Below, one piece after another: positions 2,293 through 36,579 of a stretch of DNA of 39,936 nucleotides. The stretch's first letter is position 1, and the number at the start of each line of letters is the position of its first letter. A program made the position numbers and the translations under genes. The notes below the pieces were generated by a model. The model saw only the letters and a program-made list of their open reading frames with translations. It was not told the origin of the DNA and ran no database searches. The DNA is from Curvibacter sp. GWA2_64_110. Lineage in GTDB: Bacteria; Pseudomonadota; Gammaproteobacteria; Burkholderiales; Burkholderiaceae_C. The stretch spans positions 94,593 to 134,528 of the forward strand of contig MGPC01000037.1 of assembly GCA_001797315.1 (NCBI GenBank), written 5' to 3'.

Positions 2293-2310
2293 TCCGGCAC
2301 CCGCGCGCCC

Positions 2311-2736: not shown

Positions 2737-2782
2737 ATAAGCGACGCCTGCAAGCTTGATCAAGATGACCTAGGATTGCCGC

Positions 2783-3451: not shown

Positions 3452-3477
3452 GCCAGGGCCGCGCTGTGCGTGTTGTG

Positions 3478-4440: not shown

Positions 4441-4465
4441 ATAAACCGGCCAAACACCGTTTCTG

Positions 4466-4479
4466 GGCATGGCCCTTGC
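4466..4479 (+). promoter_or_regulatory. Sigma-54 (RpoN) promoter candidate for the Anbu operon
   Basis: The sequence GGCATGGCCCTTGC fits the -24/-12 consensus GGCAC-N5-TTGC, with GG and GC exactly ten bases apart. The only departure in these blocks is T for C at the fifth position. It lies in the 71-bp gap between the phosphoesterase and ATP-grasp genes, which puts the transcript start near 4490, ~22 nt before the ATG. A small inverted repeat (CTTGT-CTCTGC-ACAAG, 4481-4496) spans the expected start. An enhancer-binding protein would be required; none is encoded nearby. Confidence 0.6.
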
Positions 4480-4511
4480 TCTTGTCTCTGCACAAGACAG
4501 GCCCATGCACC

Positions 4512-5942
4512 ATGAAGAACATCTTTGACGAAATGCATGCCCCAAACGGGAGCACGCGCCTGCATTACGCCCCGTACCAGGACTGGTTGTCGCTGATGCC
4601 GGCGGCGCACATCGCCCAAAAACGTGCCGAGGCCGATTCGGCCTTCCACCGCTCCGGCATCACCTTTGCCGTCTACGGCCAGGACGCAGGCAAGGAACGG
4701 CTGATTCCCTTCGATATCATTCCGCGCATCATTCCGGCGGCCGAGTGGGAACAGCTGGAACGCGGCCTGCGCCAGCGCGTCAATGCGCTCAACGCCTTCA
4801 TCCACGACATCTACCACGGTCAACGCATCGTCAAGGCCGGCCTGATCCCGGCCGAGCAGGTGTTCTGCAACGCCCAGTACCGCCCCGAGATGCAGGACGT
4901 GGCGGTGCGCAACGACATCTACGCCCATATCGCCGGCATCGACATCGTGCGTGCCGCGCTGCCCGGCGGCGAGGCCGCCTACTACGTGCTGGAAGACAAC
5001 CTGCGTGTGCCCTCAGGCGTCTCCTACATGCTGGAAGACCGGCGCATGATGATGCGCCTGTTCCCCGAACTCTTCGGCCGTTACCAGGTGCGCCCGGTCG
5101 ACCATTACCCCGACCTGCTGCTTGACACCCTGCGCCAAGCCGCGCCGGCCGGCATCGACGACCCCACGGTGGTGGTGCTCACGCCCGGCGCCTTCAACAG
5201 CGCCTACTTCGAACATGCCTTTCTGGCGCAGCAGATGGGTGTGGAGCTGGTCGAGGGCAAAGACCTCTTTGTGCACGACGAGACGCTGTTCATGCGCACC
5301 ACCCAGGGTCCGCGCCGGGTGGACGTGATCTACCGCCGCATCGACGACGACTTCCTCGACCCACTGGCCTTCCGTTCAGATTCGGCGCTGGGTGTGGCCG
5401 GCCTGCTCTCGGTCTACCGTGCCGGCCGTGTCACGCTGGCCAATGCCATTGGCACCGGCGTGGCGGACGACAAGTCGATCTACCCGTATGTGCCCGACAT
5501 GATCCGCTTCTACCTGTCGGAAGAGCCCATCATCGCCAACGTGCCCACCTACCAGTGCCGCAAGTCGGACGAGCTGAGCTACGTGCTGGCCAATATGGAG
5601 CAGTTGGTGGTGAAGGAGACCCACGGTGCCGGCGGCTACGGCATGCTGGTGGGGCCGGCCTCGACGAAAGCCGAGGTGGAGGCCTTCCGCGCTCGTGTCA
5701 AGGCCGCACCCGACAAATACATCGCCCAGTCAACGCTGGCGCTGTCGGCCTGCCCGACCTTCGTGGAGGCCGGCATCGCACCGCGCCACATCGACCTGCG
5801 GCCTTTTGTACTCTCCGGGCGCGAGGTGCGCATGGCGCCCGGCGGCCTGACCCGCGTGGCGCTCAAGGCCGGCTCGCTGGTCGTCAATTCATCCCAAGGC
5901 GGCGGCACCAAAGACACCTGGGTTTTGGAGTCGGAGGACTGA
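4512..5942 (+). CDS. Circularly permuted type 2 ATP-grasp protein (COG2308)
   Basis: This 476-residue protein belongs to the family formerly called DUF404/DUF407, a circularly permuted ATP-grasp predicted to form amide bonds (amidoligase-type). Recognisable blocks are the N-terminal HYAPYQDWL, then LPRI-like IPFDIIPRIIPAAEW, YYVLEDNLRVPSGVSYMLEDR (~residues 155-177), the Mg/ATP-site segment VVVLTPGAFNSAYFEH, VKETHGAGGYGML, and the C-terminal VNSSQGGGTKDTWVLE. The start at 4512 is the only ATG in the first family-like segment; an AGG lies ~11 bases ahead. It is the first gene of the four-gene operon ending with Anbu, and its stop lies 2 bp before the next start. The substrate peptide is not known. 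Confidence 0.93.
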   Translation: MKNIFDEMHAPNGSTRLHYAPYQDWLSLMPAAHIAQKRAEADSAFHRSGITFAVYGQDAGKERLIPFDIIPRIIPAAEWEQLERGLRQRVNALNAFIHDIYHGQRIVKAGLIPAEQVFCNAQYRPEMQDVAVRNDIYAHIAGIDIVRAALPGGEAAYYVLEDNLRVPSGVSYMLEDRRMMMRLFPELFGRYQVRPVDHYPDLLLDTLRQAAPAGIDDPTVVVLTPGAFNSAYFEHAFLAQQMGVELVEGKDLFVHDETLFMRTTQGPRRVDVIYRRIDDDFLDPLAFRSDSALGVAGLLSVYRAGRVTLANAIGTGVADDKSIYPYVPDMIRFYLSEEPIIANVPTYQCRKSDELSYVLANMEQLVVKETHGAGGYGMLVGPASTKAEVEAFRARVKAAPDKYIAQSTLALSACPTFVEAGIAPRHIDLRPFVLSGREVRMAPGGLTRVALKAGSLVVNSSQGGGTKDTWVLESED

Positions 5943-5944
5943 TC

Positions 5945-6886
5945 ATGTTGTCTCGTACCGCCGACCATCTCTACTGGATGTCCCGCTACACCGAGCGGGC
6001 CGAAAACATCGCCCGCATGCTGGAGGTGAGCTACCGCATGTCGCTGCAGACACCCAATGTGCAGGGCGGCTACTGGGGCGCTGCGCTCGGCATCAACGGG
6101 CTGGAAGAGGCCTACCGCGCCAAGTACGGCACCATCACCGCCGGCAACGTGCTGCGCTTCATGAGCGTGGACCAGGATAACCCCTCATCCATCCTGTCCT
6201 GCCTGCGCGCCGCGCGCGAGAACTGCCACGCCGTGCGCGGCACCGTCACCTCCGAGGTGTGGGAAACCGTCAACACCACCTGGCTGGAAGCGCGCGATTC
6301 GGTCACCGGCTTGCCGCAGGGCAGCATCCAGGGCAGCGAGCTGACCAAGTTCTTCGAGTGGGTCAAGTTCCGCTCGCACCTCTCGCGCGGCGTGACGGTG
6401 GGCACCATGCTGCAGGACGTGGCCTTCCACTTCACCCGCCTGGGCACTTTCCTGGAGCGGGCCGACAACACGGCGCGCCTGCTGGACGTGAAATTCGACG
6501 AACTGGCGCCGCAAAGCAGTGCCGACGGCGAGTACTACGAGTGGAGCGCGCTGCTGCGTTCGGTCTCGGCCTTCGAGATCTACCGCAAGGTCTACCGCGA
6601 CATGATCACGCCGCAGCGCGTGGCCGAGCTGCTGATCCTGCGCGAGGACATGCCGCGCTCGCTGCACGCCTGCATGAAAGAGGTGTACCAGATCCTCGGC
6701 CAGGTGGCCAACGCGCGCTCGCAGGAAACACTGCGTTGCGCCGGTGCCATGTACTCGCGCCTGCGTTACAGCCGCATCGAGGACATCGTCGCACGCGGCC
6801 TGCACGAGGTGCTGACCGATTTTCTGGACGGCACCGCCGACCTGGGCAACCGCATCGCGCAGGATTTCCTCTTACCGATAGGCTGA
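5945..6886 (+). CDS. Alpha-E domain protein (COG2307, formerly DUF403)
   Basis: This 313-residue, almost wholly alpha-helical protein begins MLSRTADHLYWMSRYTERAEN, the hallmark opening of the alpha-E family. ERADNTARLLDVKFDEL occurs mid-protein, repeating the helical E/R pattern. The family is found almost always next to the COG2308 ATP-grasp protein and a transglutaminase-like protein, and is thought to act with them in making or removing an unknown peptide tag. That functional idea comes from comparative genomics, not from this sequence. The start is 2 bp after the preceding stop and the stop is 14 bp before the next gene, consistent with one transcript. Confidence 0.93.
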   Translation: MLSRTADHLYWMSRYTERAENIARMLEVSYRMSLQTPNVQGGYWGAALGINGLEEAYRAKYGTITAGNVLRFMSVDQDNPSSILSCLRAARENCHAVRGTVTSEVWETVNTTWLEARDSVTGLPQGSIQGSELTKFFEWVKFRSHLSRGVTVGTMLQDVAFHFTRLGTFLERADNTARLLDVKFDELAPQSSADGEYYEWSALLRSVSAFEIYRKVYRDMITPQRVAELLILREDMPRSLHACMKEVYQILGQVANARSQETLRCAGAMYSRLRYSRIEDIVARGLHEVLTDFLDGTADLGNRIAQDFLLPIG

Positions 6887-6900
6887 TTCAGGAGACCACC

Positions 6901-7737
6901 ATGCTGCTCGACATCCGCCACGAAACCCTCTACCGCTACGCCGTGCCGGCCAGCTACAGCCTGCAGTACATGCGGCTGTGGCCGCGCGCCGATGGCGGCC
7001 AGCGCGTGCTCAACTGGCGCATCGACGCGCCGGGCCGGCGCTGGGCGCAGACCGATGCCTATGGCAATGCGGTGTTCGTCACTTCGCTGACCAACAAGCA
7101 CGACGTCATTCGCGTGGTGGCGCAGGGCCAGGTGGAAACCTCGGACGAGCGTGGTCTGCTGCTGCCGCACGACTCCGCCGTGCCGCCGCTGGCCTTTGCC
7201 CTGCCCACCAGCCTGACCGAAGCCGATGCCGCCATCGAAGCCCTGGCCGCCGAAGCGCTGGGCGACACGCCCTGGGGCGCGCTGGCCGGCCCCGAGCCGC
7301 TGCAGGCCCTGGCCGATGCCATCTACAGCCGCGTGGCCTACGTGCAAGGCGTCACCGATGTTTTCCACACCGCAGCCGAGGTGCTGCAACAGGGGCAGGG
7401 CGTGTGCCAGGACATGGCGCACGTGTTCCTGGCCTGCTGCCGCGTGCGCGGCATTCCGGCGCGTTACGTCAGCGGCTACCTGTTGACCGACGCCACCCAT
7501 GCCGCCTCGCACGCCTGGGCCGAGGCCTGGCTGCCGCAGGCCCGTGGCGGTGCCGGCGCCTGGGTTGGCTTTGACGTCACGCACCAGCGCATGGCCGGCC
7601 CCGAGCTGTGCCGCCTGGCCGTGGGGCGCGACTTTGCCGACGCCAGCCCCATGCGCGGCATCCACGTTGGCGGCGGCGGTGAAGCACTGTCGGTGCGCGT
7701 GGCGGTGCAGGGCAGCGAGGCCGTGGCCGACCAATAA
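6901..7737 (+). CDS. Transglutaminase-like cysteine peptidase of the Anbu operon
   Basis: This 278-residue protein has a bacterial transglutaminase N-terminal beta domain (LDIRHETLYRYAVPASYSLQ) and a papain-like core. The catalytic triad is visible: C169 in GQGVCQDMAHVF, H204 in SHAWAEAW and D225 in GFDVTHQR. GIPARYVSGYL is the usual strand between Cys and His. No signal peptide is seen, so it acts in the cytosol. In operons of this type it is expected to cleave or transfer on the amide bonds made by the ATP-grasp partner. An AGGAG at 6891-6895 precedes the ATG. Confidence 0.93.
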   Translation: MLLDIRHETLYRYAVPASYSLQYMRLWPRADGGQRVLNWRIDAPGRRWAQTDAYGNAVFVTSLTNKHDVIRVVAQGQVETSDERGLLLPHDSAVPPLAFALPTSLTEADAAIEALAAEALGDTPWGALAGPEPLQALADAIYSRVAYVQGVTDVFHTAAEVLQQGQGVCQDMAHVFLACCRVRGIPARYVSGYLLTDATHAASHAWAEAWLPQARGGAGAWVGFDVTHQRMAGPELCRLAVGRDFADASPMRGIHVGGGGEALSVRVAVQGSEAVADQ

Positions 7738-7801
7738 GCAGAACAGAGCGGGCGGGCCGTGCCGCTACACTGCCAAGTCCATGCAGGAGACAACACAAGC
7801 C

Positions 7802-8548
7802 ATGACGTATTGCGTAGCCGTCCGTAACGATGCCGGGCTGGTCTTCCTGTCCGACTCGCGCACCAACGCCGGGGTGGACCAGATCAGCACCTTCCGCAAG
7901 ATGCACGTGTTCGAGGTGCCGGGCGAGCGCGTCATGGTGCTGCTCACCGCCGGCAACCTGGCCATCAGCCAGTCGGTCGCCAGCGGCCTGAAGGTGCAGA
8001 TGGAAAACCATGGCGAGGGCAGCGAAACCAAGAGTCTGGCCAGCGCGCCCAACATGTTCAGCGCCGCCAAGCTGGTGGGCGAGGCGGTGCGCAAGGTCTA
8101 CGAGCGCGACGCCGAAGCGCTGAAGGAATTCAAGATCGAGTTCAACGTCAGCCTGATCTTCGGCGGCCAGATCAAGGGCGAGGAGCCGCGCCTGTTCAAC
8201 ATCTACTCGGCCGGCAACTTCATCGAGGCCACACCCGAGACGCCGTACTTCCAGATCGGCGAGTCCAAATACGGCAAACCGATTCTGGACCGCGTCATCG
8301 GCAACGAACTTTCACTCGACGAAGTGGCCAAGTGCTGCCTGATCTCGATGGACTCCACCATCAAGTCCAACCTCTCGGTCGGCTTGCCGCTGGACCTGCT
8401 GTGCTACCAGAAGGACGCGCTGAAAGTGGAGCGCCGCACCCAGATCGACGGCAAGGACCCGTACTTCAACTCGCTACGCGAGCGCTGGGGCCAGCAGCTG
8501 CGCAAGGTGTTCAATGAGTTGCCGGATCCGGGGTATTGGCAGGAGTAG
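7802..8548 (+). CDS. anbu: Anbu (ancestral beta subunit) proteasome-type peptidase
   Basis: This 248-residue Ntn-hydrolase is related to the 20S proteasome beta subunit and HslV (COG3484). The start at 7802 gives MTYCVAVRNDAGLVFLSDSR: removal of Met exposes Thr as the N-terminal nucleophile, as the family needs, and AGGAGA at 7785-7790 is well placed. An in-frame ATG at 7781 would bury the threonine and is rejected. Other family blocks are LSDSRTNAGVDQI, TAGNLAISQSV (near the catalytic-lysine region) and FNIYSAGNFIEA. Anbu forms open helical or ring-like assemblies in studied bacteria; its natural substrate remains unclear. This is the last gene of the operon, 64 bp after the transglutaminase gene. 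Confidence 0.94.
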   Translation: MTYCVAVRNDAGLVFLSDSRTNAGVDQISTFRKMHVFEVPGERVMVLLTAGNLAISQSVASGLKVQMENHGEGSETKSLASAPNMFSAAKLVGEAVRKVYERDAEALKEFKIEFNVSLIFGGQIKGEEPRLFNIYSAGNFIEATPETPYFQIGESKYGKPILDRVIGNELSLDEVAKCCLISMDSTIKSNLSVGLPLDLLCYQKDALKVERRTQIDGKDPYFNSLRERWGQQLRKVFNELPDPGYWQE

Positions 8549-8575
8549 GCATTTATCTTCCGGTTGTGAAGTGCT

Positions 8576-9385
8576 TCAGGTGAATGCCGTTTGCAAAAGC
8601 TCATGCCAGGCACTGCGCAAGGCGGGCGTACTGGCTGCAAGTGTCCCCGATGCGTACCAGGGCTGCTCGTCGAGAGACCAGAGCATGCCACCAGCTTCCT
8701 CGATGAGTAACATGCCGGCGGCGGCATCCCAGGCCCCCATGCCGCGCTCCCAGAATACGTCGATGCGACCGGCGGCCAAGTAGGCCAGCTCCAGGGCCAT
8801 GCTGCCGGCACGGCGCACTCCGGAGCATGTGCGCATCACCCGACCCAGTTCAGGCAGGTACTGCTGCATGAAATCCGCTTTCGGCTTGGGAAACACCGTG
8901 GCTGCCACGGCCTGTGACAGGCTAGCTGTCGCAGCCACCTGCAGTGGCTGCCCGTTGCAGTATGCGCCGTGGCCACGTGCAGCCAAGTATGTTTCCTGGC
9001 GTACCGGATCGACAATGCAGGCTACCACCGGCATGCTGTCGTGCAGCAGGGCAATCGATACCGCGTATTGCGGATAGCCTCGCAGGAAGTTCATGCTGCC
9101 GTCGATCGGATCGACCAGCCAGACGTGGTGGTGTTGCAGCAGCGCTGCGATGGGTCTACTGTGTAGGCTTTCCTCGCCCCAGAACAGATGCTCGGGGTAG
9201 CGTTCGGCGATGCGCTCGCGCAACAGGTTTTCGATCTGCAGATCGAGTTCGCTGCACCAGTCGCCCTGGGCTTTCTCGATGATCATGCGGGCCTGCTCGC
9301 GTCCCCGCTGCAGGCGCTCGGCGGCCAGTTGACCCAGACTACAGGCGAAGTCGCGTGCCTGGAGAAGTTCGTACGGACTGTTCAT
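8576..9385 (-). CDS. Inositol monophosphatase-family phosphatase in the sulfolactate locus
   Basis: This 269-residue Mg2+-dependent, Li+-sensitive-type phosphatase shows all metal-site motifs: GEES (70-73), DPIDGSMNF (92-100) and WDAAAG (219-224). DPIDGS differs from the common DPIDGT only by Ser for Thr. Family members act on inositol phosphates, fructose-1,6-bisphosphate, histidinol phosphate or 3'-phosphoadenosine 5'-phosphate (CysQ). The start overlaps the stop of the regulator gene as ATGA (9382-9385), so the two are co-translated. Placement in a sulfonate locus suggests a sulfur-related phosphate ester as substrate, but this is inference; the sequence does not single out a CysQ-type enzyme. 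Confidence 0.9.
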   Translation of the reverse strand: MNSPYELLQARDFACSLGQLAAERLQRGREQARMIIEKAQGDWCSELDLQIENLLRERIAERYPEHLFWGEESLHSRPIAALLQHHHVWLVDPIDGSMNFLRGYPQYAVSIALLHDSMPVVACIVDPVRQETYLAARGHGAYCNGQPLQVAATASLSQAVAATVFPKPKADFMQQYLPELGRVMRTCSGVRRAGSMALELAYLAAGRIDVFWERGMGAWDAAAGMLLIEEAGGMLWSLDEQPWYASGTLAASTPALRSAWHELLQTAFT

Positions 9386-10167
9386 TCGTTGCGCGTCACG
9401 TCCGTCACGTAATCGTGACGCTGGGACGCGATCAGCGAGGTGCGCAGTTCCACCGGACGTTCGCCAAAGCTCAGTGCCAGGCGCTGGACTTCCAGCAGCG
9501 GCGCTCCGTTGGTAACGCCCAAATGACGCATGGCCTCGCGCGTGGCGAGGACGGCGCGGGCACGTTCCTGCGTGTGCAGCACCGTGATGCCGAAGTCGGT
9601 CTGGTACAGGTTGTAGATGGTGTTCTCGCGCTCACGGAAGCGCTTCTCTGTCATGCCCTTGAACAGGCTGGCGGAGATCACAATGCGATCAAGCACTACG
9701 GGTCGGCCTGACAGGCTCAGGCGGTTGTGTATTACGAAGATCGGATCACCTTCACGCAGCCGCAGCGCGCCAGCGCTCACCTCGTCGGATCGCTGGCGTT
9801 CAAACGAGAGGCACTGCACCTGCGGGTATTCGGGCGCGGCTTTCAAACCCAGGTGCGACCAGTCTTCATGTGCCTGCACGCGGAAGAACTGGAACAGGTA
9901 GCGATCCTTCGAATGCAACTTGACGAAGGTTCCCTTTCCCTGGTGCCGCACCAGTACGTGCTCATGTACCAGTTCATCCACGGCGCGACGCAGCGTTCCG
10001 ATGCTCACCTGCAGCTCGGTAGCAAGGGTGCGCTCGTTGGGAAGAGCCTGGCCGGGACGCCATTGATGCGTTTCGATACGCCGCAGCAGTTCGCGCTTGA
10101 CCTGTAGGTAAAGAACGCCCGGTCCGCTGATGGATGGACTGGATGAGATGTTTGGAACGGAAGGCAT
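9382..10167 (-). CDS. GntR-family regulator with UTRA (HutC-type) effector domain
   Basis: This 261-residue protein has a winged-helix DNA-binding domain at about residues 15-85 (YLQVKRELLRRIE, LPNERTLATELQVS, GTLRRAVDELV, GKGTFV) and a UTRA ligand-binding domain in the rest (ISASLFKGM...YNLYQTDFGI, then SLIASQRHDYVTDV at the C-terminus). The ATG at 10167 is preferred because the GntR domain begins shortly after it; the frame stays open to 10257 but no better ribosome site is seen. The gene is divergent from suyA and coupled to the phosphatase gene. It most likely senses sulfolactate or a derivative and controls the locus through the palindrome at 10201-10220. Confidence 0.92.
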   Translation of the reverse strand: MPSVPNISSSPSISGPGVLYLQVKRELLRRIETHQWRPGQALPNERTLATELQVSIGTLRRAVDELVHEHVLVRHQGKGTFVKLHSKDRYLFQFFRVQAHEDWSHLGLKAAPEYPQVQCLSFERQRSDEVSAGALRLREGDPIFVIHNRLSLSGRPVVLDRIVISASLFKGMTEKRFRERENTIYNLYQTDFGITVLHTQERARAVLATREAMRHLGVTNGAPLLEVQRLALSFGERPVELRTSLIASQRHDYVTDVTRNE

Positions 10168-10200
10168 GCATGAAGTGTATCTGCATTCATGAACATCATT

Positions 10201-10220
10201 CAGGTCATATAGATGACTTG
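10201..10220. promoter_or_regulatory. Candidate operator of the GntR/UTRA regulator
   Basis: CAGGTCATATAGATGACTTG is a 20-bp inverted repeat with a single mismatched pair (arms CAGGTCAT and ATGACTTG, 4-bp spacer). It lies in the 117-bp gap between the divergent regulator and suyA genes, 33 bp from the regulator start. A TTGACG that could be a -35 element for suyA begins at 10222. A second, looser repeat (CATGAA...TTCATG) occurs at 10165-10190 over the regulator start. Confidence 0.55.
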
Positions 10221-10284
10221 TTTGACGCTCGGATTTTCCGCGTGCACAGTTGGACACCTCAAGAACGCATTTTTAGGAGAAGCA

Positions 10285-10566
10285 ATGATTCATTTTGTGT
10301 TGCACGACGCAGATGACACCGTGGCGGTGGTGGTGGTCGAAGGCGTCAAGCGCGGTGACAAGATCACCGGCTGGATCATGGACGAGGACCGCATGATCGA
10401 TATCACCTCCAGAGCCGACATCCCGATCGGGCACAAGGTGGCACTCAAGGACATGGCCGTGGGTGACACGGTTATGAAATATGGGATCGACATGGGCAAG
10501 GTGGTTGCCCCGATCGCGGTGGGTGAGCATGCCCATGTCCACAACATCAAGACCAAGCGCTGGTGA
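10285..10566 (+). CDS. suyA: (2R)-sulfolactate sulfo-lyase, small (alpha) subunit
   Basis: This 93-residue SAF-domain protein is the detached N-terminal half of an altronate/galactarate dehydratase-type lyase. It reads FVLHDADDTVAVVVVEGV, GWIMDEDRMIDI, IPIGHKVALKDM, then VMKYGIDMGKV and ends HVHNIKTKRW. Length and wording agree with SuyA as I remember it. With SuyB it removes sulfite from (R)-3-sulfolactate, leaving pyruvate. The start at 10285 follows AGGAGA at 10275-10280; the upstream extension of the frame is not needed. Generic UxaA small subunits look similar, so the SuyA call leans on the neighbouring slcC, comC and suyZ genes as well. Confidence 0.88.
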   Translation: MIHFVLHDADDTVAVVVVEGVKRGDKITGWIMDEDRMIDITSRADIPIGHKVALKDMAVGDTVMKYGIDMGKVVAPIAVGEHAHVHNIKTKRW

Positions 10567-10618
10567 GCGGTTGCCTCGCACACCCTTCGTCCTTCTTCAT
10601 TGACCGAAAGAGTTCACC

Positions 10619-11794
10619 ATGTCCGTCATTTCCAAAGATACGATTTTTCTGGGTTATCGCCGAGAAAACGGCCGCGTAGGCGTTCGCAACCATGTGATCA
10701 TCCTGCCGCTCGACGACCTGTCCAACGCTGCCGCCGAGGCGGTGGCCCACAACATCAAGGGAGCCTTGGCCATTCCCCATCCTTACGGTCGTCTGCAATT
10801 CGGTGCCGACCTGGACCTTCACTTTCGGACCCTGATCGGCACTGGCTGCAACCCCAACGTGGCTGCGGTGGTGGTCATCGGTATCGAGGACGGCTGGACC
10901 AAACGCGTGGTCGATGGCATCGCCGCGACCGGCAAGCCGGTCGCCGGCTTCGGCATTGAAGGCCACGGTGACCACGACACCATCCTGCGCGCCAGCAAGA
11001 CGGCGCGCGAGTATGTGCAGTGGGCCAGTGAGAAGCAGCGCGAGGCGTGCCATATCTCTGAGCTGTGGGTCAGCACGAAGTGCGGCGAGAGCGATACCAC
11101 CAGCGGCTGTGGCGCCAATCCGACCGTGGGAAACGCCTTTGACAAACTGCATGCCCTGGGCAACTACCTGTGCTTTGGCGAGACCAGTGAAATCACCGGC
11201 GGCGAGAAGATCGTCGCGTCCCGTTGCAAAACGCCCGCGGTGGCGGAGAAGTTCATGTTCATGTTCAACCGTTACCAGGACATGATCAATCGCCATAAGA
11301 CGTCGGACCTGTCCGACAGCCAGCCTACTAAGGGAAATATCGCCGGCGGTCTGACGACCATCGAAGAAAAGGCCTTGGGCAACATCCAGAAGATCGGCAA
11401 GAAGTGCACCGTGGATGGCGTGATCGACAAGGCTGAAATGCCCACCCATCCGGGGTTGTGGTTCATGGATTCGTCTTCGGCTGCGGCAGAGATGGTGACC
11501 TTGTGTGCCGCCTCGGGCTATGCGGTGCACTTCTTCCCCACCGGGCAGGGCAATGTGATCGGCAACCCCATCCTGCCGGTCATCAAGATCTGCGCCAATC
11601 CACGCACCGTGCGGACCATGAGCGAGCATATCGACGTCGATAGTTCAGGCTTGCTCCAGCGGGGGATCACGCTGGATCAGGCGGGCGACAAGCTGCTCGA
11701 GTGCATGCTGCGCACGGCGAACGGCCGACTCACGGCAGCCGAGGCCCTGGGCCACCGGGAGTTCGTGCTCACCCGTTTGTACGAGTCGGCGTAA
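10619..11794 (+). CDS. suyB: (2R)-sulfolactate sulfo-lyase, large (beta) subunit
   Basis: This 391-residue UxaA C-terminal-type lyase subunit has the usual size of SuyB. It begins with [23 protein letters not shown], and has GTGCNPN (C81) and [20 protein letters not shown], the cysteine-bearing segments typical of the altronate dehydratase superfamily and likely to hold the Fe site. [25 protein letters not shown] near the C-terminus is another family block. With SuyA it catalyses (R)-sulfolactate to pyruvate plus sulfite in the cytosol, the desulfonation step of the pathway. It follows suyA by 52 bp. Altronate dehydratase is the main alternative, but no uronate genes are present. Confidence 0.88.
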
Positions 11795-11850
11795 GCGTTC
11801 TTCTCTTTAACTCAAGTCGCTGCGCCGAAAGGCGTGGCGGTAATCAGAAC

Positions 11851-12777
11851 ATGGCCCGAATCCTGATCACAGAATTCATGGACACGCCTGCTGTGGCGCA
11901 GCTGCAGCGCACGCACGATGTGCATTACGCCCCCAGGCTGGTCGATCAGCCCGACGCGCTGCTGCGGGAAGCGGCGGTGGCTGAGGTGCTGATTGTCCGC
12001 AACCGCACGCAAGTGCGCGGGGAACTGCTGGATGCTCTTGAGTGTTGCAGCCTGGTCGGTCGCCTCGGGGTCGGCCTGGACAACATCGACGTTGCGGGCT
12101 GCGAGGCCCGTGGCATGCAGGTTGTTCCGGCTACCGGTGCCAATGCGCTTTCCGTTGCCGAGTATGTCATCGGAACGGCGATGCTGCTGCTGCGTGGGGC
12201 CTACCAGTCGAACGAGACCATGCTGCGAGGGCTGTGGCCGCGTAACGTGCTGTCGCAAGGACGAGAGATCCATGGCAAGACCCTGGGGCTGATTGGCTTC
12301 GGCTCGATCGGTCAGAGCACAGCGCGCCTTGCTCAGGGTGTGGGCATGCGTGTTCAGGCCCATGACCCCCTGATGGGCGAGGGGCACCCGGCATTCTTGG
12401 CAACAGGGGTGATGTGCGTGGAACTGGATGAGCTGCTGGCGTCTTCGGATGTGATCAGCCTGCATGTGCCGCTGTTGCAGAGCACGCGGCATCTGATGAA
12501 TGCCGTGCGGCTGGCGCAGCTCAAGCGGGGGGCGATCCTGATCAATAGTGCGCGGGGCGGCGTGATCGACGAACCAGCACTGGTGGCCGCGCTCCAGAGC
12601 GGCCTTCTGGCTGGTGCGGCGCTCGACGTTTTTGAAGACGAACCGCTGCAAGCCGTCAACCCGTTTGTTGGCTGTCCCAACGTCGTACTGACGCCGCATA
12701 TTGCAGGCGTGTCGATCGAGTCCAATCAGCGCGTGAGCGAGATGATCGTGCACAAGGTTCTGGAAGCCCTCGCATGA
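11851..12777 (+). CDS. slcC: (S)-sulfolactate dehydrogenase (D-isomer-specific 2-hydroxyacid dehydrogenase family)
   Basis: This 308-residue NAD-dependent dehydrogenase shows the Rossmann motif GFGSIG (149-154) and the catalytic set of the D-2-hydroxyacid family: R235 in NSARGGVID, E264 in DVFEDEPL and H283 in TPHIAG. GRLGVGLDNID (70-80) is the usual substrate-domain loop. On its own it could be a phosphoglycerate-type dehydrogenase; between suyB and comC it matches SlcC, which oxidises (S)-3-sulfolactate to 3-sulfopyruvate. The frame stays open upstream into suyB, but 11851 gives the family N-terminus (MARILITEFMD). It is translationally coupled to comC by an ATGA overlap at 12774-12777. Confidence 0.85.
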   Translation: MARILITEFMDTPAVAQLQRTHDVHYAPRLVDQPDALLREAAVAEVLIVRNRTQVRGELLDALECCSLVGRLGVGLDNIDVAGCEARGMQVVPATGANALSVAEYVIGTAMLLLRGAYQSNETMLRGLWPRNVLSQGREIHGKTLGLIGFGSIGQSTARLAQGVGMRVQAHDPLMGEGHPAFLATGVMCVELDELLASSDVISLHVPLLQSTRHLMNAVRLAQLKRGAILINSARGGVIDEPALVAALQSGLLAGAALDVFEDEPLQAVNPFVGCPNVVLTPHIAGVSIESNQRVSEMIVHKVLEALA

Positions 12778-13787
12778 GCCAGATCACGCTTGCCCAAGCC
12801 CATGATTGGGTTGAGAAAGCACTGTTGCAGTGCGGTGCACACCCTGACATGGCGGCTGCCACAGCGCGCTCGCTGGTGCGCGCCGAGGCGCAAGGGCTGG
12901 CTTCACACGGACTGTCCCGGGTGCCGCAGTACGTCGCGCATCTGAGGAGTGGCCGGGCCCACGGGGCGGCCGTACCGCGTGTGGTGCGCCATCAGGGGGC
13001 GGCTGTCCTGGTCGACGCCGATAAGGGCCTGGCCTTTGCAGCCTGCGAACTGGCCGTGCGCGAGGCCATCATCACGGTCAGCAAACTCGGCGTCTGTTTT
13101 GCCGGCGTGACCAACAGTCACCATTGCGGTGTGCTGGTCGACCACCTGCGGCCCGCTGCCGAGGTCGGGTTGGTCGGCCTGGGTTTTGCCAATTCGCCAT
13201 CGGCCATGCCGGTGGCCGGCGGCAGGCACGCGATTCTGGGTACCAACCCGATTGCGGCGATCTTTCCCCGTCTGGGTCACGACCCCTTGATGATCGATCT
13301 GTCGCTTTCCGAGGTGGCGCGCGGCAAGCTCATGGTCGCTGCCCGGGAAGGTCGGGAGATTCCGCTGGGCTGGGCGCTGGACGCACAAGGCGAACCCACC
13401 ACCGACCCCCAGGCCGGCATGGCCGGGTCGATGTTGCCTTTCGGCGCGGCGACGGGCACCAAAGGTGCAATGCTGGCACTCCTGGTTGAGCTGCTGGTCA
13501 CGGCCCTGATCGGTGCGCAGTTCGGCTTCGAGGCTTCGTCCTTCTTCGTGGACGAGGGCAACCAGCCGCGCATTGGCCAGGCCTTCCTGCTCATCGACCC
13601 AGGCGCCCTGGCTGGTTCGCGGTCCTACTTCGACCGCCTTGAGGTGTTGATCCGCAACATGCTGGTCGACGAGGGGGTGCGCCTGGCGGGGGCTCGGCGG
13701 CTTGCACTCGAGCGGGCCGCTGCGCAAGCAGGCATCAACATACCTGATGCACTTTTCAAGCAGATCCAGGCACTGGCCGCGGGATGA
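12774..13787 (+). CDS. comC: (R)-sulfolactate dehydrogenase (malate/L-lactate dehydrogenase family)
   Basis: This 337-residue protein belongs to the LDH2/MDHG NAD(P)-dependent oxidoreductase family. Typical blocks are ASHGLSRVPQYV (43-54), TNSHHCGVL with the presumed catalytic histidine (H116 or H117), GTNPIAAIFP and the late GNQPRIGQAFLLIDP. In sulfolactate degraders ComC reduces sulfopyruvate to (R)-sulfolactate. With SlcC it therefore acts as a two-enzyme racemase that feeds the stereospecific lyase SuyAB. The name is shared with the archaeal coenzyme M pathway enzyme, its relative. The assignment rests on family plus gene order slcC-comC behind suyAB. Confidence 0.86.
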   Translation: MSQITLAQAHDWVEKALLQCGAHPDMAAATARSLVRAEAQGLASHGLSRVPQYVAHLRSGRAHGAAVPRVVRHQGAAVLVDADKGLAFAACELAVREAIITVSKLGVCFAGVTNSHHCGVLVDHLRPAAEVGLVGLGFANSPSAMPVAGGRHAILGTNPIAAIFPRLGHDPLMIDLSLSEVARGKLMVAAREGREIPLGWALDAQGEPTTDPQAGMAGSMLPFGAATGTKGAMLALLVELLVTALIGAQFGFEASSFFVDEGNQPRIGQAFLLIDPGALAGSRSYFDRLEVLIRNMLVDEGVRLAGARRLALERAAAQAGINIPDALFKQIQALAAG

Positions 13788-13841
13788 ATAGGACCGCACT
13801 AGCGTCGATCAATGACATGTCCAACCGATGAGGAGTATTCG

Positions 13842-14804
13842 ATGATGCAACGTCGTGAAATTCTGTTGACTGCCGGCTCGCTGGCCTTGGGGACTTCTGC
13901 CTGGGCGCAAGGGGCACCGATCCCGTCCACCATCAAGTATGTGGTGCCGTTCCCGCCGGGCGGCCTGACGGATGTCATGGCCCGCATTGCCGCCAATCGG
14001 CTGGCCGATGCGCTCAAGGTGACGGTGGTAGTGGAGAACAAGGCTGGCGCCAGCGCCCAGATCGGCGCTGAACAGGTTGCCAAGGGGTCATCCGATGGTT
14101 CGCAGATTCTGGCGATCACGCTGGCGCATGCGGCGAATGTGACGTTGTTTCCGCAGGCGCGCTACGATTTGCTGAAGGATCTCACCCCGGTAGCCCTGTT
14201 GGCTGGCTCACCGATGCTTATTGTCGTACCGGCCAACAGCCCGATCAAGGATTTTGCCGGGCTTGTCGAGGCTTCCAAAGCCCGTATGCTGAATGTCGGC
14301 TCGAGCGGAAATGGCACGCCGCCACACCTCACGATGGCGTTGTTCAATGAACTGAACAAGACCGAGATGGCGCATGTGCCGTACCGGGGTGGGGCACCTT
14401 CGATGACCGACCTGATCGGTGGTCAGCTCGATGTCATCTTTTCGAACTTTCCGGAGTCGGTGGCCCATGTGAAGGGCGGCAAGCTTCGTGCGCTGGCGTT
14501 CTGTTCGGCGACGCGCAACCCTCAGATGCCCAATGTACCAACCACGGCCGAAGTCGGCATGCCTGGCTTGCTGGTCGAGAACTGGACGGCAGCCATGGTG
14601 CAGGCACGCACGCCAGCCGGCGTGGTCGACCGCTATTCGCGTGAACTCATCAAGGTCATGTTCACGGACGAGGTGGAGGAGCGTGCCCAGACGTTGGGTT
14701 TCCGGCCCAACCCACAGGGCGTTGACCAGTTCGGCGCCTTCCTCCGTGCCGAGGTTGCACGTTGGTCCCGCATCATCAAGACGGCCAAGATCACGGTGAC
14801 ATGA
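13842..14804 (+). CDS. Bug-type (TTT family) periplasmic substrate-binding protein
   Basis: This 320-residue exported protein has a signal peptide containing an RR pair (MMQRREILLTAGSLALGTSAWAQG), cleaved near residue 23. Bug-family blocks follow: YVVPFPPGGLTDVMAR, VVVENKAGASAQIGAE, NVGSSGNGTPPHLTMALF and VPYRGGAPSMTDLIGGQLDVIF. AGGAG at 13831-13835 supports the ATG at 13842 (or the next codon, 13845) over the ATG at 13812. The likely ligand is sulfolactate or a related 3-carbon acid, inferred from position. No TctA/TctB membrane partners are in the window, so it may lend ligand to a transporter encoded elsewhere or act as a sensor. The stop overlaps suyZ. Confidence 0.92.
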   Translation: MMQRREILLTAGSLALGTSAWAQGAPIPSTIKYVVPFPPGGLTDVMARIAANRLADALKVTVVVENKAGASAQIGAEQVAKGSSDGSQILAITLAHAANVTLFPQARYDLLKDLTPVALLAGSPMLIVVPANSPIKDFAGLVEASKARMLNVGSSGNGTPPHLTMALFNELNKTEMAHVPYRGGAPSMTDLIGGQLDVIFSNFPESVAHVKGGKLRALAFCSATRNPQMPNVPTTAEVGMPGLLVENWTAAMVQARTPAGVVDRYSRELIKVMFTDEVEERAQTLGFRPNPQGVDQFGAFLRAEVARWSRIIKTAKITVT

Positions 14805-15838
14805 TGGTGGCTGGCTCGATGGCTGCGGGGGTCGCCACCCGCTGGGTTCGGCTGCGTCAGCTGTTTCCCGGTTTGCTGATCAGCGGACTGGTGGCCCTCG
14901 CTGCAACATTTGTTTCGGGCCACTATGGTGGACCGCAGCTGTTGTACGCACTGCTGATGGGGCTGAGCCTGCACTTTCTGGCCAATGATCCCACGGTCCG
15001 CCCTGGCATCGATTTCTGCGCCCGCAGCTTGCTGCGCGTCGGCGTGGCGTTGCTGGGCGCGCGCATCACGCTGGCGCAGATTTCGGCGCTGGGGTGGCAG
15101 ACGGCGCTGATCGTGGTTGCGGCGGTGCTCTGTACGATCGCTTTGGGTCTGGCCTTGGCGCGTCACTACCGCCGGCCGGTCGAGGAGGGGCTGATTTCGG
15201 GTGGAGCAGTTGGCATCTGCGGGGCCTCGGCGGCACTGGCGGTGGCTTCGGTGCTGCCTGGCACCAAGGACAATGAGCGTTTCACGCTGCTGGTCATTGT
15301 TGGGGTGACGCTGATGTCAACCGTGGCCATGGTGCTGTACCCGCTGGTGACAGCCTGGATGCAGTGGAGTTCACTCGACAGTGCCATCTTCCTGGGGGCC
15401 ACCATCCATGACGTGGCTCAGGTGGTCGCGGCGGCGAGTCTGTTGGCTTCGGGGGGCGATACCCATACGGTCGACATGGCGACGGTGGTCAAGCTGTTCC
15501 GTGTCATGTTGCTCATGCCCATTGTGCTGGCCATCTCGCTTTTTTTCCGGCGCGCGCAGATCGAGATGAGCGATCGACCTGTGCCGTGGATCCCAGGTTT
15601 TTTGGTGGCTTTCATTGCGCTGGTGCTGCTGGGGAGCGCACAGATGATCTCCGCAGAAGTCTCGACGTATGCGAGTGACACCTCACGCGCTTTCCTGGTG
15701 CTCGCGATTGCGGCTGCCGGTGTCAAGACCGACTTCGCCGATATCCTCAAGCTTGGTTGGGTGCCACTCGTGATGCTGCTGTCGGAGACCGCTTGGATCG
15801 CCATCTTTGTCGGCCTGTGCCGGCCGCTTTGGGGCTGA
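14801..15838 (+). CDS. suyZ: Putative sulfate/sulfite exporter (PSE / UPF0324 family), SuyZ-like
   Basis: This ~345-residue integral membrane protein of the YeiH/UPF0324 family appears to have around ten hydrophobic helices (for example FPGLLISGLVALAATF, LIVVAAVLCTIALGLAL, LLVIVGVTLMSTVAMVLY, MLLMPIVLAISLFF, FLVAFIALVLLGSA). Conserved family segments are LLRVGVALLGARITLAQI, SGGAVGICGASAALAVASVLP and GATIHDVAQVVAAA. Members placed with sulfonate genes (SuyZ, TauZ) are thought to export the sulfate or sulfite released by desulfonation. The start at 14801 forms an ATGA overlap with the receptor gene; Met codons at 14804 and 14819 are also possible. It is the last gene of the right-hand operon. 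Confidence 0.85.
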   Translation: MMVAGSMAAGVATRWVRLRQLFPGLLISGLVALAATFVSGHYGGPQLLYALLMGLSLHFLANDPTVRPGIDFCARSLLRVGVALLGARITLAQISALGWQTALIVVAAVLCTIALGLALARHYRRPVEEGLISGGAVGICGASAALAVASVLPGTKDNERFTLLVIVGVTLMSTVAMVLYPLVTAWMQWSSLDSAIFLGATIHDVAQVVAAASLLASGGDTHTVDMATVVKLFRVMLLMPIVLAISLFFRRAQIEMSDRPVPWIPGFLVAFIALVLLGSAQMISAEVSTYASDTSRAFLVLAIAAAGVKTDFADILKLGWVPLVMLLSETAWIAIFVGLCRPLWG

Positions 15839-15871: not shown

Positions 15872-18757
15872 TCACGGCGTTTCCTGCTCCATCTCATTCA
15901 CCGGCACACAGCTGCAGAACAGGTTGCGGTCACCCCAGACGTTGTCGATACGCCCCACCGGCGGCCAGTACTTGGCGTGCTGTTCCTCGCCGCGCGGGAA
16001 GGCCCCCACCTCGCGCGGGTAGGCGTGCGGCCACTCGGCGGTGAGCAGGCTGGCGGCCGTGTGCGGCGCGTTCTTCAGTGGGTTGTCGTCCTGCGGCCAC
16101 TCGCCGCGCTCCACCTTGGCGATCTCGCGGCGGATGGCGATCATGGCGTCGATGAAGCGGTCCAGCTCGTCCAGCGTTTCGCTCTCGGTGGGCTCCACCA
16201 TCAGCGTGCCGGGCACGGGGAAGCTCAGCGTGGGCGCGTGGAAGCCGTAGTCCATCAGGCGCTTGGCCACGTCTTCGGCGCTGACGCCGCTGGTCTCTTT
16301 CAGCGGGCGCAGGTCCAAGATGCATTCGTGCGCCACGTGGCCGTTCTCGCTCGCGTACAGCGTGGGGTAGAAGTCTTTCAGGCGGGCGCTGATGTAGTTG
16401 GCGCTCAGGATGGCCGCCTCGGTGGCGGCCGTCAGGCCCTCGGCGCCCATCATGCGGCAGTACATCCAGCTGATCGGCAGCACCGCGGCATTGCCCATCG
16501 GGGCGGCTGACACGGCACCCACGCCGTTGACGGGCAAGCCCCCGGTGGTGTGGCCCGGCAGGTAAGGCACCAGGTCTTCCACCACACACACCGGGCCCAC
16601 GCCGGGGCCGCCGCCGCCGTGCGGAATGCAGAAGGTCTTGTGCAGGTTCAGGTGGCTGACGTCGCCGCCGAACTCGCCCGGGGCGGCCACGCCCACCAGC
16701 GCGTTCATGTTGGCGCCGTCCACATAAACGCGGCCGCCGTGCTGGTGCACCAGGGCGCACAGTTCCTTCACCTGGGTTTCGAACACGCCGTGCGTGCTGG
16801 GGTAGGTGATCATCACGCAAGCCAGATTGGCGCTGTGCTGCTCGCACTTGGCCTTCAGGTCGGCCAGATCCACATTGCCCTGCGCGTCGCAGGCCGTCAC
16901 CACCACCTGCAGGCCCGCCATGTGGGCGCTGGCCGGGTTGGTGCCGTGGGCGGAGGACGGGATGAGGCAGATGTTGCGCTGGCCCTGGCCTTGGGCCTGG
17001 TGCCAGGCGCGGATGGCCAGCAGGCCGGCGTATTCACCCTGCGAGCCGGCGTTGGGTTGCAGGCTGATGCCGGCGTAGCCCGTGGCCTGGCACAGCCAGG
17101 CGCGCAGCTGCGCGTCCAGCTCGGCATAACCCTGGCGCTGCGTTGCGGGTGCGAAGGGGTGGATGTGCGCGAACTCGGGCCAGGTGATGGGAATCATCTC
17201 GCTGGTGGCGTTGAGCTTCATGGTGCAGCTGCCCAGCGGGATCATGCTGCGGTCCAGCGCCAGGTCCAGATCACTCAGGCGGCGGATGTAGCGCAGCATG
17301 CCGGTCTCAGAGTGGTGGGTGTTGAACACCGGGTGCGAGAGGAAGGCGCTGCGGCGGCGCAGGGCGGCGGGAATCAGCGCCTCGGTGTTTTCCAGCGCTT
17401 CCACCGTCGGCAGCGCCTGGCCGTCCCTGGCGAAGAAGGACCAGAGTAGGGTGATGTCGTCGCGCGTGGTGGTCTCGTCGAGCGAGATGCCCAGCGACGT
17501 TTCAGAGCAAAAACGAAGGTTAGCCCCCGCCGTTACGGCGCGAGAAGGTATCAATTTAGTAGCGTTTCCGGTGGCCACCGTCAGTGTGTCGAAGGCGGTG
17601 GCCGCCTGGAGCGTGTAGCCCATGGCCTGCAGGCCGCGCGCCAGGATGGCGGTGAAGGCCGCCACGCGCTCGGCGATGCGCGTCAGCCCCTGCGGGCCGT
17701 GGTACACGGCGTACATGCTGGCGATGACGGCCGGCAGCACCTGCGCGGTGCAGATGTTGGAGGTGGCTTTCTCGCGGCGGATGTGCTGCTCGCGCGTCTG
17801 CAGCGCCAGGCGGTAGGCCGGCCGGCCATGCACGTCCACGCTCACGCCCACCAGGCGGCCAGGCAGGGAGCGCTTGTAGTCGTCGCGGCAGGCCAGGTAG
17901 GCGGCGTGCGGGCCGCCGTTGCCCATGGGCATGCCGAAGCGCTGCGTGCTGCCCAGCACGATGTCGGCACCGAATTCACCCGGTGGCAGCAGCAGCGTGA
18001 GCGCCAGCAGGTCGGCCGCCACGCAGAAGGCGGCCTGCTGCGCATGGGCCTGGTCCACCAGCGGGCGCAGGTCGGGCACGGCGCCGCTGCTGCCGGGGTA
18101 CTGGGCCAGCACGGCGAAGTAGTCGCCCGCCGCCATCAGCTCGGCCAGCGCGCCCACGCGCACCGCGATGCCCAGCGGCTGGGCGCGGGTGCGGATGACT
18201 TCGATGGTCTGCGGGTGGCAGTCGGCATCGACCAGGAAAACATCGCTCTGGCTCTTCACACTGCGTTTGGCCAAGGTCATGGCCTCGGCGGCGGCGGTGG
18301 CTTCGTCCAGCATGGAGGCGTTGGCAATCGGCATGCCGGTCAGGTCGCACACCATGGTCTGGAAGTTCACCAGCGCTTCCAGGCGGCCCTGGCTGATCTC
18401 GGCTTGGTAGGGTGTGTAGGCGGTGTACCAGGCCGGGTTCTCCAGGATGTTGCGCAGGATCACGCCCGGTGTGTGCGTGCCGTAGTAACCCTGGCCGATG
18501 AAGCTCTTGGCCACCTGGTTCTTGGCGGCAATGGCTTTCAGTTCGGCCAGTGCGGTGGCTTCCGTCACCGGCGCCGGCAGGTCCATGCGGCTGCGGCGCG
18601 CAATCGAACGCGGCACGATGCCGTCGATCAGTTCGCGGCGCGAAGCCGAACCCACCGCCTGCAGCATGCGGGCCTCGTCTTCGGGCGAAATGCCGATGTG
18701 GCGGGCCAGGAATTCGGTGGCGTTTTCGAGTTCGCGCAGGGTACGTGCGGCAGACAT
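15872..18757 (-). CDS. gcvP: Glycine dehydrogenase (decarboxylating), P-protein
   Basis: This 961-residue homodimer-type P-protein decarboxylates glycine and passes the aminomethyl group to lipoyl-GcvH. The PLP lysine is K707 in [18 protein letters not shown]. Other family blocks are [16 protein letters not shown], the N-terminal [25 protein letters not shown] and [12 protein letters not shown]. It is the third gene of gcvT-gcvH-gcvP on the minus strand. Residues ~396-420 (DNA 17500-17570) are odd: a run of AT-rich, otherwise rarely used codons (ACT AAA TTG ATA CCT TCT) whose DNA resembles the intergenic repeat at 36985-37010. The frame is intact there and the segment length fits the family, so the protein is probably functional. 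Confidence 0.97.
17500..17570 (-). repeat. AT-rich repeat-like segment inside the gcvP reading frame
   Basis: Within a very GC-rich gene this block has unusual composition. Bases 17538-17563 match the intergenic repeat at 36985-37010 in 20 of 26 positions, in the same orientation (GAAGGTATCAATTTAGTAGC here, GAAGCTATCAAAATAATAGC there). The gcvP frame passes through without a shift or stop. The boundaries given are those of the AT-rich patch; the true ends are uncertain. Confidence 0.5.
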
Positions 18758-18856
18758 GGTCGTGGTTCTCCCTCGTCAGAGACGATCTGGTTTCAAAAAA
18801 CAAAGAGGCGTTGTGAGCGGGCTGTCGGGCGGTACGTCACAACCGCGCATCAGCCG

Positions 18857-19225
18857 TCAGGCGTTCTTGGTGAGCTCGGTGTAGGCCGTCTCGTCCAGCA
18901 GCGCAGCGAGCTGCGAGGCGTCGGACAGCTTGACCTTGAAGAACCAGCCGGCGCCCAGCGGGTCGCTGTTGGCCAGCGACGGGTCGGCGCGCAGCGCTTC
19001 GTTCACCTCGGTCACTTCGCCCGAGACCGGCATGTACACATCGGCCGCGGCCTTGACGGACTCCACCACGCCGGCCACGTCTTTCTGCGCCAGCGTCTTG
19101 CCCACCTCGGGCAGGTCTACGAACACCACATCGCCCAGCGCGTCCTGCGCATGGACCGTGATGCCAACGACGGCAGTGTCGCCTTCGACCTTGAGCCACT
19201 CGTGGTCTTCGGTGTACTTGATCAT
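18857..19225 (-). CDS. gcvH: Glycine cleavage system H protein
   Basis: This 122-residue lipoyl-carrier protein starts [23 protein letters not shown], the usual H-protein opening. The lipoylated lysine is K58 in [18 protein letters not shown]. It shuttles the aminomethyl intermediate between GcvP, GcvT and dihydrolipoamide dehydrogenase. The gene lies 42 bp after gcvT and 99 bp before gcvP on the minus strand, and would be under the same glycine-riboswitch control. Confidence 0.97.
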
Positions 19226-19267
19226 GTTGTCAACTCCAAAAAAACGTTGTGTTCCGTAGAGGCTTAT

Positions 19268-20419
19268 TCAACCACGGTAATAGCGGTTCGGCACGAAGGG
19301 CGTGGCGCTTACCTCCATGGGTACCGGCTTGCCGCGCACGATGGCGTTCAGGCGGGTGCCCGCTGCGGCGCAGGCGGCGGCCACATAGGCCATGGCCACG
19401 GGTTTATCGAGCGTGGGGGAGAGCAGGCCGCTGGTGACCTCGCCCACGCGCTGGCCGTTCAGGTCTTGCAACTCCACATGCTCGCGTACCGGCACGCGCT
19501 CCAGGCCCAGCAGGCCCACGCGCTGGTGCGTGAGCGTGGCCGGGTTGTCCAGTTGCGCCAGCACCTTGTCGGCGCCGGGGAAGCCGCCAGCGCGCGCACC
19601 GCCGGTGCGGCGTACTTTCTGGATGGCCCAGTTCAGGCCGGCTTCCACCGGGGTGGTGCTGGTGTCGATGTCGTTGCCGTACAGGCACAGGCCGGCTTCC
19701 AGCCGCAACGAGTTGCGTGCGCCGAGTCCCGCGGGTTTCACTTCCGGCTGCGCCAGCAGCAGGTGGGCCAGCGCCTCGGCCTGCATCTCGTGCACGGAAA
19801 TCTCGAAGCCGTCCTCGCCGGTGTAGCCGCTGCGGGTGATGAAGCAGTCGATGTCCTGCGCCGAGTGGTGCACGTGAAAGGCGCCGCCGCTCATGAACAC
19901 CAGCTTCTCCACGCCCGGGCACAGGCGCTGCAGCGCCGTCACCGCCTGCGGGCCTTGCAGCGCCAGCAGCGCGCGCTCCGGCATGGGGATGACCTGGCAG
20001 CGCTGGCCGATGCGGGCCTGGATGTGGGCGATGTCATGGGCTTTGCAGGCACCGTTGACCACCACAAAAATATCGCTGCCGCGGTTGACGAACATCAGGT
20101 CGTCGAGGATGCCACCGGCCTCGTTCAGCAGCAGGCCGTAGCGCTGCTTGCCCACGGCCAGGCCCTGCACGTCCACTGGCATCAGGCTCTCGAACGCGGT
20201 GGCCGCGTCCGGCCCCACCAGGCGCAGCTGGCCCATGTGCGACACGTCGAACAGGCTGGCCGCCGTGCGGGTGTGGTGGTGCTCGGCCATCAGGCCCATG
20301 CCCAGGCCCTGGTATTGCACCGGCATGGCGTAGCCGGCAAAGGGCACCATGCGGGCGTTCAAGGACAGGTGCAGGTCGTACAGCGGGGTGTGAAGCAGAT
20401 TCTGGTCAGGGCTCGACAA
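19268..20419 (-). CDS. gcvT: Aminomethyltransferase, T-protein
   Basis: This ~383-residue T-protein transfers the methylene group from aminomethyl-GcvH to tetrahydrofolate and releases ammonia. Family blocks are LYDLHLSLNARMVPFAGYAMPVQY, FDVSHMGQLRL, SGYTGEDGFEI (near the folate site) and LEAGLCLYGNDID. The first ATG in the open frame (20554) lies inside the glycine-riboswitch aptamer, so it cannot be the start. TTG at 20419-20417, with GGAG seven to eight bases ahead, gives (M)SSPDQNLLHTPLYDLH, the normal length and N-terminus. I therefore choose this TTG start. It is the first gene of the gcvTHP operon. Confidence 0.93.
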   Translation of the reverse strand: MSSPDQNLLHTPLYDLHLSLNARMVPFAGYAMPVQYQGLGMGLMAEHHHTRTAASLFDVSHMGQLRLVGPDAATAFESLMPVDVQGLAVGKQRYGLLLNEAGGILDDLMFVNRGSDIFVVVNGACKAHDIAHIQARIGQRCQVIPMPERALLALQGPQAVTALQRLCPGVEKLVFMSGGAFHVHHSAQDIDCFITRSGYTGEDGFEISVHEMQAEALAHLLLAQPEVKPAGLGARNSLRLEAGLCLYGNDIDTSTTPVEAGLNWAIQKVRRTGGARAGGFPGADKVLAQLDNPATLTHQRVGLLGLERVPVREHVELQDLNGQRVGEVTSGLLSPTLDKPVAMAYVAAACAAAGTRLNAIVRGKPVPMEVSATPFVPNRYYRG

Positions 20420-20474
20420 AGCAAAACTCCAGGGGCATTGGAAACCACGGCCAAAAAGCCATGGGCTGCCCCCG

Positions 20475-36500: not shown

Positions 36501-36579
36501 GGGGTCTCCTCGTTGTTCTGCTGCAGATTATGCTTGGCGCTTGACACACAACTTGCAGCCCATAACAGGAGAACGATTC

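Follow-up and report, generated by a model that had tools for sequence, protein, structure and literature searches.

The window analysed here, a 39,936-nucleotide stretch of contig MGPC01000037.1 from Curvibacter sp. GWA2_64_110 (source assembly 3.4 Mb, 95.56% complete), contains between positions 8576 and 15838 a suyAB locus that, judging from its sequence, is very likely a catabolic operon for 3-sulfolactate, the substrate probably being imported. In the proposed pathway, a periplasmic receptor would bind sulfolactate and pass it to a permease, SlcC would convert (S)-sulfolactate to sulfopyruvate and ComC would convert sulfopyruvate to (R)-sulfolactate, which the predicted metal-dependent lyase SuyAB would cleave to pyruvate and sulfite; a PF03601 protein may then export sulfite or sulfate. 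A GntR regulator would control both divergent operons from a palindrome at 10204-10217 in response to sulfolactate or a related compound, and a phosphatase of the inositol-monophosphatase family (IMPase) would be co-regulated with gntR. The genes and their order, as observed in the window, are as follows.

8576-9385, minus strand: IMPase, inositol-monophosphatase family; PF00459, 197.6 bits; 4-base ATGA overlap with the end of gntR
9382-10257, minus strand: GntR/UTRA regulator; PF00392 and PF07702 above cut-off
10204-10217, no strand: predicted operator, palindrome GTCATATAGATGAC; kept upstream of suyA in relatives
10285-10566, plus strand: SuyA, predicted small SAF-domain subunit of (R)-sulfolactate sulfo-lyase; 93 residues; from similarity to 3k3s (3.2e-12) and neighbourhood
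10619-11794, plus strand: SuyB, predicted large subunit of (R)-sulfolactate sulfo-lyase; 391 residues; PF04295 and PF20629; tree clade
11851-12777, plus strand: SlcC-like putative (S)-sulfolactate dehydrogenase, D-2-hydroxyacid dehydrogenase family; PF02826/PF00389
12774-13787, plus strand: ComC-like putative (R)-sulfolactate dehydrogenase, Ldh_2 family; PF02615, 310 bits
13812-14804, plus strand: Bug/TctC-type periplasmic solute receptor; PF03401, 179 bits; locus without TctA/TctB
14801-15838, plus strand: SuyZ-like putative sulfate/sulfite exporter; PF03601, 196.5 bits, above cut-off

Open reading frames (ORFs) and Pfam matches placed every gene named in an earlier, sequence-only reading of this DNA where that reading had put it, with intact reading frames, and its ATGA overlaps were confirmed for slcC/comC (12774-12777) and for receptor/exporter (14801-14804). 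It had passed over the IMPase gene, which lies within the same interval.

Identity of the lyase

The lyase is split into a SAF-type ORF and a large ORF with PF04295/PF20629, a two-subunit layout. No Pfam family scored on the SuyA ORF, and the galactarate dehydratase model matched it weakly (27.5 bits against a cut-off of 731); its closest solved chain was the N-domain of an altronate hydrolase (3k3s), and it could be aligned with the proteins that occupy the SuyA position in C. pinatubonensis and Paracoccus. Pfam and NCBIfam label the lyase solely as a member of the galactarate/altronate dehydratase superfamily. Taken at face value, this label would favour a dehydratase of the altronate/galactarate type, or some other split UxaA enzyme, with the dehydrogenase pair racemising a non-sulfonated 2-hydroxyacid. 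However, the SuyB of C. pinatubonensis is also recognised solely by the model for galactarate dehydratase (152 bits; cut-off 731), so the label carries no weight.

A maximum likelihood tree of 36 rows placed all 25 SuyB proteins in one clade with a support of 100/100 and a stem of 1.82 changes per column; the reference rows within this clade (C. pinatubonensis, Paracoccus) represent strains or species close to those studied and are not the assayed SuyAB proteins. The 11 rows outside were Escherichia coli UxaA and GarD, the fused altronate dehydratase of P. seriniphilus, and other fused or split UxaA relatives; these outgroups are long-branched, so relations among them are unsure. Twenty-three positions were invariant across the 25 SuyB proteins and different in all 11 other rows, including E157 in a CGESD motif, where the other rows have G or D, and Q310, for which they have R, D or V. 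A check set in advance, whether SuyB would group inside the altronate/galactarate dehydratases, thus came out negative, and on the tree and diagnostic residues an altronate/galactarate dehydratase was rejected. SuyB instead joins proteins linked to hpsN, which at 78-82% identity shares a locus with suyB in 9 of the best 80 loci. Because these relatives' loci are the best 80 SuyB matches listed, they are skewed to close kin.

Within that list the closest named SuyB proteins belong to a Limnohabitans metagenome-assembled genome (MAG) and a Burkholderiaceae MAG, both at 95%, and in the tree the SuyB of a congeneric genome was almost identical to that of Polaromonas sp. P2-4. Among plasmid records, SuyB identity was 83.6% for C. 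pinatubonensis, 82.6% for Caballeronia insecticola, 67-70% for nine alphaproteobacterial records and 62-63% for two Rhodococcus records, and the next record stood at 40.5%. The place of SuyB in the tree, the residues specific to its clade, the relatives linked to hpsN and the conserved gene neighbourhood give good support to the sulfolactate assignment of the sequence-only reading, and a dehydratase or other UxaA-type lyase acting on a non-sulfonated substrate appears highly improbable.

Several observations nevertheless weigh against the sulfolactate reading. A plasmid of Variovorax sp. SRS16 (L187:1736-7288) carries a hydroxyacid dehydrogenase, an Ldh-family protein, a TctC receptor and a GntR protein around a clearly different split UxaA lyase, 36.6% identical to SuyB; such a gene set therefore does not by itself identify the lyase. 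A D-2-hydroxyacid dehydrogenase and an Ldh_2 protein are linked to suyAB by Pfam assignment and neighbourhood; the best NCBIfam match of ComC, L-sulfolactate dehydrogenase NF040650, reached 185.8 bits, under the cut-off of 500, and the SuyZ-like protein scored 117.1 bits with TIGR00698, under the cut-off of 232.6. Since both fall below their NCBIfam cut-offs, the names ComC and SuyZ follow from family and neighbourhood. The exporter was also linked in just 9 of the 52 well-flanked loci, defined as those of the best 80 in which suyB is flanked by at least 3.5 kb on the left and at least 5 kb on the right, and in the locus itself the receptor stands alone, without TctA and TctB, so that no permease is assigned to it.

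Substrate supply and fate of sulfite

Two TctA genes above cut-off occur elsewhere in the genome; by eye, each adjoins a TctB-like ORF and has a receptor-like ORF close by, which in one case is separated from it by a further ORF. The suggestion that the Bug receptor sets this locus apart was not borne out: a receptor at least 40% identical was found in 18 of the 52 well-flanked loci, none of these 18 having a TctA match in the locus, and C. pinatubonensis has a lone receptor too. A TctA-type permease was present in 2 of the 52 (L084, L120), where the receptor match was weaker.

The locus might alternatively handle sulfolactate made inside the cell, from 2,3-dihydroxypropane-1-sulfonate (DHPS) or from sulfosugars, rather than imported. 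Consistent with this, relatives including three genomes of the same genus (L149-L151) have hpsN in their suyAB locus, and in L115 (positions 1034-9995) suyAB stands with homologues of hpsN, hpsO and hpsP, a kinase of the PfkB family and an aldolase of the tagatose-1,6-bisphosphate type that exceeds the NF009498 cut-off, possibly a sulfosugar-to-sulfite cluster. On the other side, the locus has its own receptor, and hpsN was not found in the genome by a search that did not cover sulfosugar pathways; its single match, 36% identical, lies amid histidine biosynthesis genes recognised by eye, and at 95.56% completeness this absence is not final. Without hpsN in the genome, DHPS is an unlikely source, and feeding from DHPS through HpsN was rejected. 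We therefore regard an internal origin of sulfolactate as unlikely, and import as the probable route. Our literature search found no paper joining sulfolactate with Limnohabitans.

The absence of sulfite dehydrogenase and cysteate genes from the window, as stated in the sequence-only reading, is in line with the Pfam results for 20 further ORFs there, a set that left out the ORFs at 3678-8548, those for glycine cleavage at 15872-20554 and a few shorter than 130 residues. Elsewhere in the window, at 35928-36951, two opposed ORFs of the carboxymuconolactone-decarboxylase family have starts sharing 2 bases. In the genome as a whole, three proteins carry PF00174: SoxC (591 bits, cut-off 420), MsrP (482, cut-off 207) and a third that passes no model; none of them passes the SorA or SorT cut-off. 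As to Sox or Soe routes for sulfite, a SoxY search was silent in this genome and equally in all 14 control genomes, and no DmsC-type subunit was found in a search that matched in 1 of 14 control genomes. On a 7.7 kb contig of the same genome (L179:230-2684), SoxC, which exceeds the TIGR04555 cut-off, adjoins a 363-residue ORF that looks like a cytochrome subunit by eye and has no NCBIfam match, which hints at sulfur oxidation. A TauE-like protein was also recognised by eye elsewhere in the genome; no NCBIfam model matched it.

Divergent regulator, palindrome and phosphatase

The palindrome GTCATATAGATGAC was the only match in the window to GTCATMTAKATGAC at no more than two mismatches (0.07 expected). 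It falls inside the longest GntR reading frame, so the true gntR start is probably the internal ATG at 10170. The motif was drawn by eye from the window and then tested on 94 distinct stretches upstream of suyA, the window among them: it occurred with at most two mismatches in 68, a count inflated by kinship of the loci (base shuffles, 0.15), and with three mismatches in 12. Among the 80 sites with at most three mismatches, pairs 2/13 to 5/10 and 7/8 were complementary in 67-79, and in some distant loci both arms had changed together, giving GTCTTATATAAGAC in two phylum genomes and CTCATATATATGAG in C. pinatubonensis. The palindrome is thus conserved; speaking against its role as an operator, it was not found (four or more mismatches) in 14 of the 94 stretches, and in the 80 sites the outer pair was complementary in just 44 and pair 6/9 in 28. 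Literature searches found no paper on sulfolactate with GntR and an operator, nor, among the papers listed, one on a suyAB regulon or binding site.

The IMPase gene overlaps the end of gntR and is probably co-transcribed with it. In addition to PF00459, its product has WGEE, DPIDGS and WDAAA, which we take to be the catalytic motifs of the inositol monophosphatase superfamily. None of the NCBIfam equivalog models compared was passed: scores were 142.4 bits for SuhB (cut-off 332), 142 for HisN (275.15) and 91.2 for CysQ (228.8). The genome has a SuhB-like gene at another site, which at 299.9 bits also stays under 332, and likewise a CysQ gene, which at 290.1 bits exceeds 228.8.

An IMPase match was found in 14 of 106 loci compared, and in 12 of these it lay directly behind a GntR homologue beside suyAB (L050, L060, L065, L066, L067, L068, L079, L080, L100, L121, L124, L165); in L094 and L162 it did not. 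These gntR-IMPase loci span Limnohabitans, Rhizobacter, Polaromonas, Brachymonas, Variovorax and others. The gntR/IMPase junction was listed for four loci, with a 4-base overlap in L050, L121 and L197 and a 15-base gap in L068. Across 120 family genomes, an IMPase match at E ≤1e-48 occurred in 7, five of them beside suyB, with that of the window counted. L197, where the IMPase stands behind a homologous GntR, showed no match to suyAB in the 13 kb read, which disfavours a strict tie of the couple to sulfolactate. The IMPase match of L198 groups with the genome's SuhB-like protein; the suy-linked IMPases formed no single supported clade apart from SuhB in a tree, which leaves a shared ancestry of the whole group unsupported.

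Our best guess is that the IMPase acts on a phosphorylated organosulfonate or has a clean-up role. A more specific proposal is that one branch of the sulfolactate pathway has a dedicated IMPase, coupled to the SuyAB regulator and under the same operator, that would hydrolyse a phosphorylated sulfonate (phosphosulfolactate or a phosphorylated sulfosugar) to feed or protect SuyAB; we put this forward with more doubt than confidence. A literature search joining sulfolactate with inositol monophosphatase listed a single paper, on a database, and no description of a phosphatase route feeding or protecting SuyAB was found.

Two related ideas were rejected. A phosphosulfolactate phosphatase fed by ComA was dropped because no ComA was found in the genome by a search that matched in 2 of 14 control genomes. 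The apparent mutual exclusion between hpsN and IMPase fell short of significance (Fisher p 0.12): across 105 distinct suyAB loci, IMPase lay within 4.5 kb in 14, hpsN in 17 and both in 0.

A PfkB-family kinase was present in 7 of 109 records, 6 of them distinct (L201 repeats L080), and two of the six have an IMPase. In these two suyAB loci (L068:7501-8427 and L080:12324-13262) a PfkB-family sugar kinase comes straight after the receptor. The PfkB kinases of L068, L080, L052 and L115 passed no NCBIfam cut-off and so pointed to no substrate.

Comparison with known systems and distribution

The sulfolactate cluster of Chromohalobacter salexigens was reportedly treated by Denger and Cook in 2010, and P. 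pantotrophus is said to have been the subject of Rein et al. in 2005. The racemising dehydrogenase pair joined to SuyAB, which the sequence-only reading had pointed out, is already in the literature: a two-dehydrogenase system and a tripartite tricarboxylate transporter (TTT; SlcHFG) for sulfolactate appear in PMC12421959, PMC9594981 and PMC5812351. According to these papers, C. salexigens (SlcHFG, SlcC, ComC, SuyAB) shares with the window two-dehydrogenase racemisation feeding SuyAB and a Bug/TctC-type sulfolactate receptor; it has a complete TTT transporter, whereas the window has a lone receptor, an IMPase and a GntR/UTRA regulator, the two being likened by description only.

The pathway from DHPS through sulfolactate to SuyAB is established in C. 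pinatubonensis JMP134 according to PMC11382572 and PMC9594981, and the former names the cluster hpsRNOUP-suyAB. C. pinatubonensis HN-2 shares with the window SuyA (72% identical) and SuyB (84%), a lone TctC receptor after suyAB and the related palindrome upstream of suyA. Its suyB gene follows hpsN, hpsO, a major facilitator superfamily transporter and, where hpsP would be, a dehydrogenase, which is the JMP134 order as given in PMC11382572. Unlike in the window, hpsNOP feed (R)-sulfolactate from DHPS in the C. pinatubonensis cluster and transhydrogenase genes follow; the 25 kb examined in HN-2 gave no match to the SlcC, ComC, GntR or IMPase of the window.

Paracoccus (P. versutus, P. seriniphilus) shares GntR, suyAB and a putative sulfate exporter with the window, and P. 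seriniphilus has in one stretch hpsN/O/P-type genes, GntR, suyAB, a receptor plus permease, slcC, comC and a putative sulfate exporter. By contrast with the window, SuyB is just 68-69% identical, hpsN-type genes lie nearby and no IMPase match was obtained in Paracoccus; in P. versutus an annotated sulfite oxidase lies near the suyAB locus.

Among the 52 well-flanked loci, SuyA was present in all 52, ComC (at least 50% identity) in 48, GntR (at least 33%) in 44 and SlcC (at least 50%) in 39, followed by the receptor in 18, IMPase in 10, the exporter (at least 45%) in 9 and hpsN in 6. A SuyB match at E ≤1e-80 was found in 39 of 299 same-family genomes and in 15 of 398 phylum genomes, with the present genome counted in both. 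Within the genus, 15 of 26 genomes gave some SuyB match, at least 82% identical in 4 including this genome; the best matches of the remaining 11 were 28-32% identical.

The sulfolactate gene set is therefore common in Burkholderiales, and the locus described here is a well-preserved sulfolactate operon of a type already published; for its phosphatase and predicted operator, the literature searches given above turned up no description. Many Burkholderiales carry sulfolactate mineralisation that Pfam and NCBIfam label only as galactarate/altronate dehydratase-like. The SuyB residue signature, together with the predicted operator, would aid the annotation of sulfolactate mineralisation, and the gntR-IMPase couple, which recurs, marks a well-defined gap, open to experiment, in a pathway whose other steps have been worked out.

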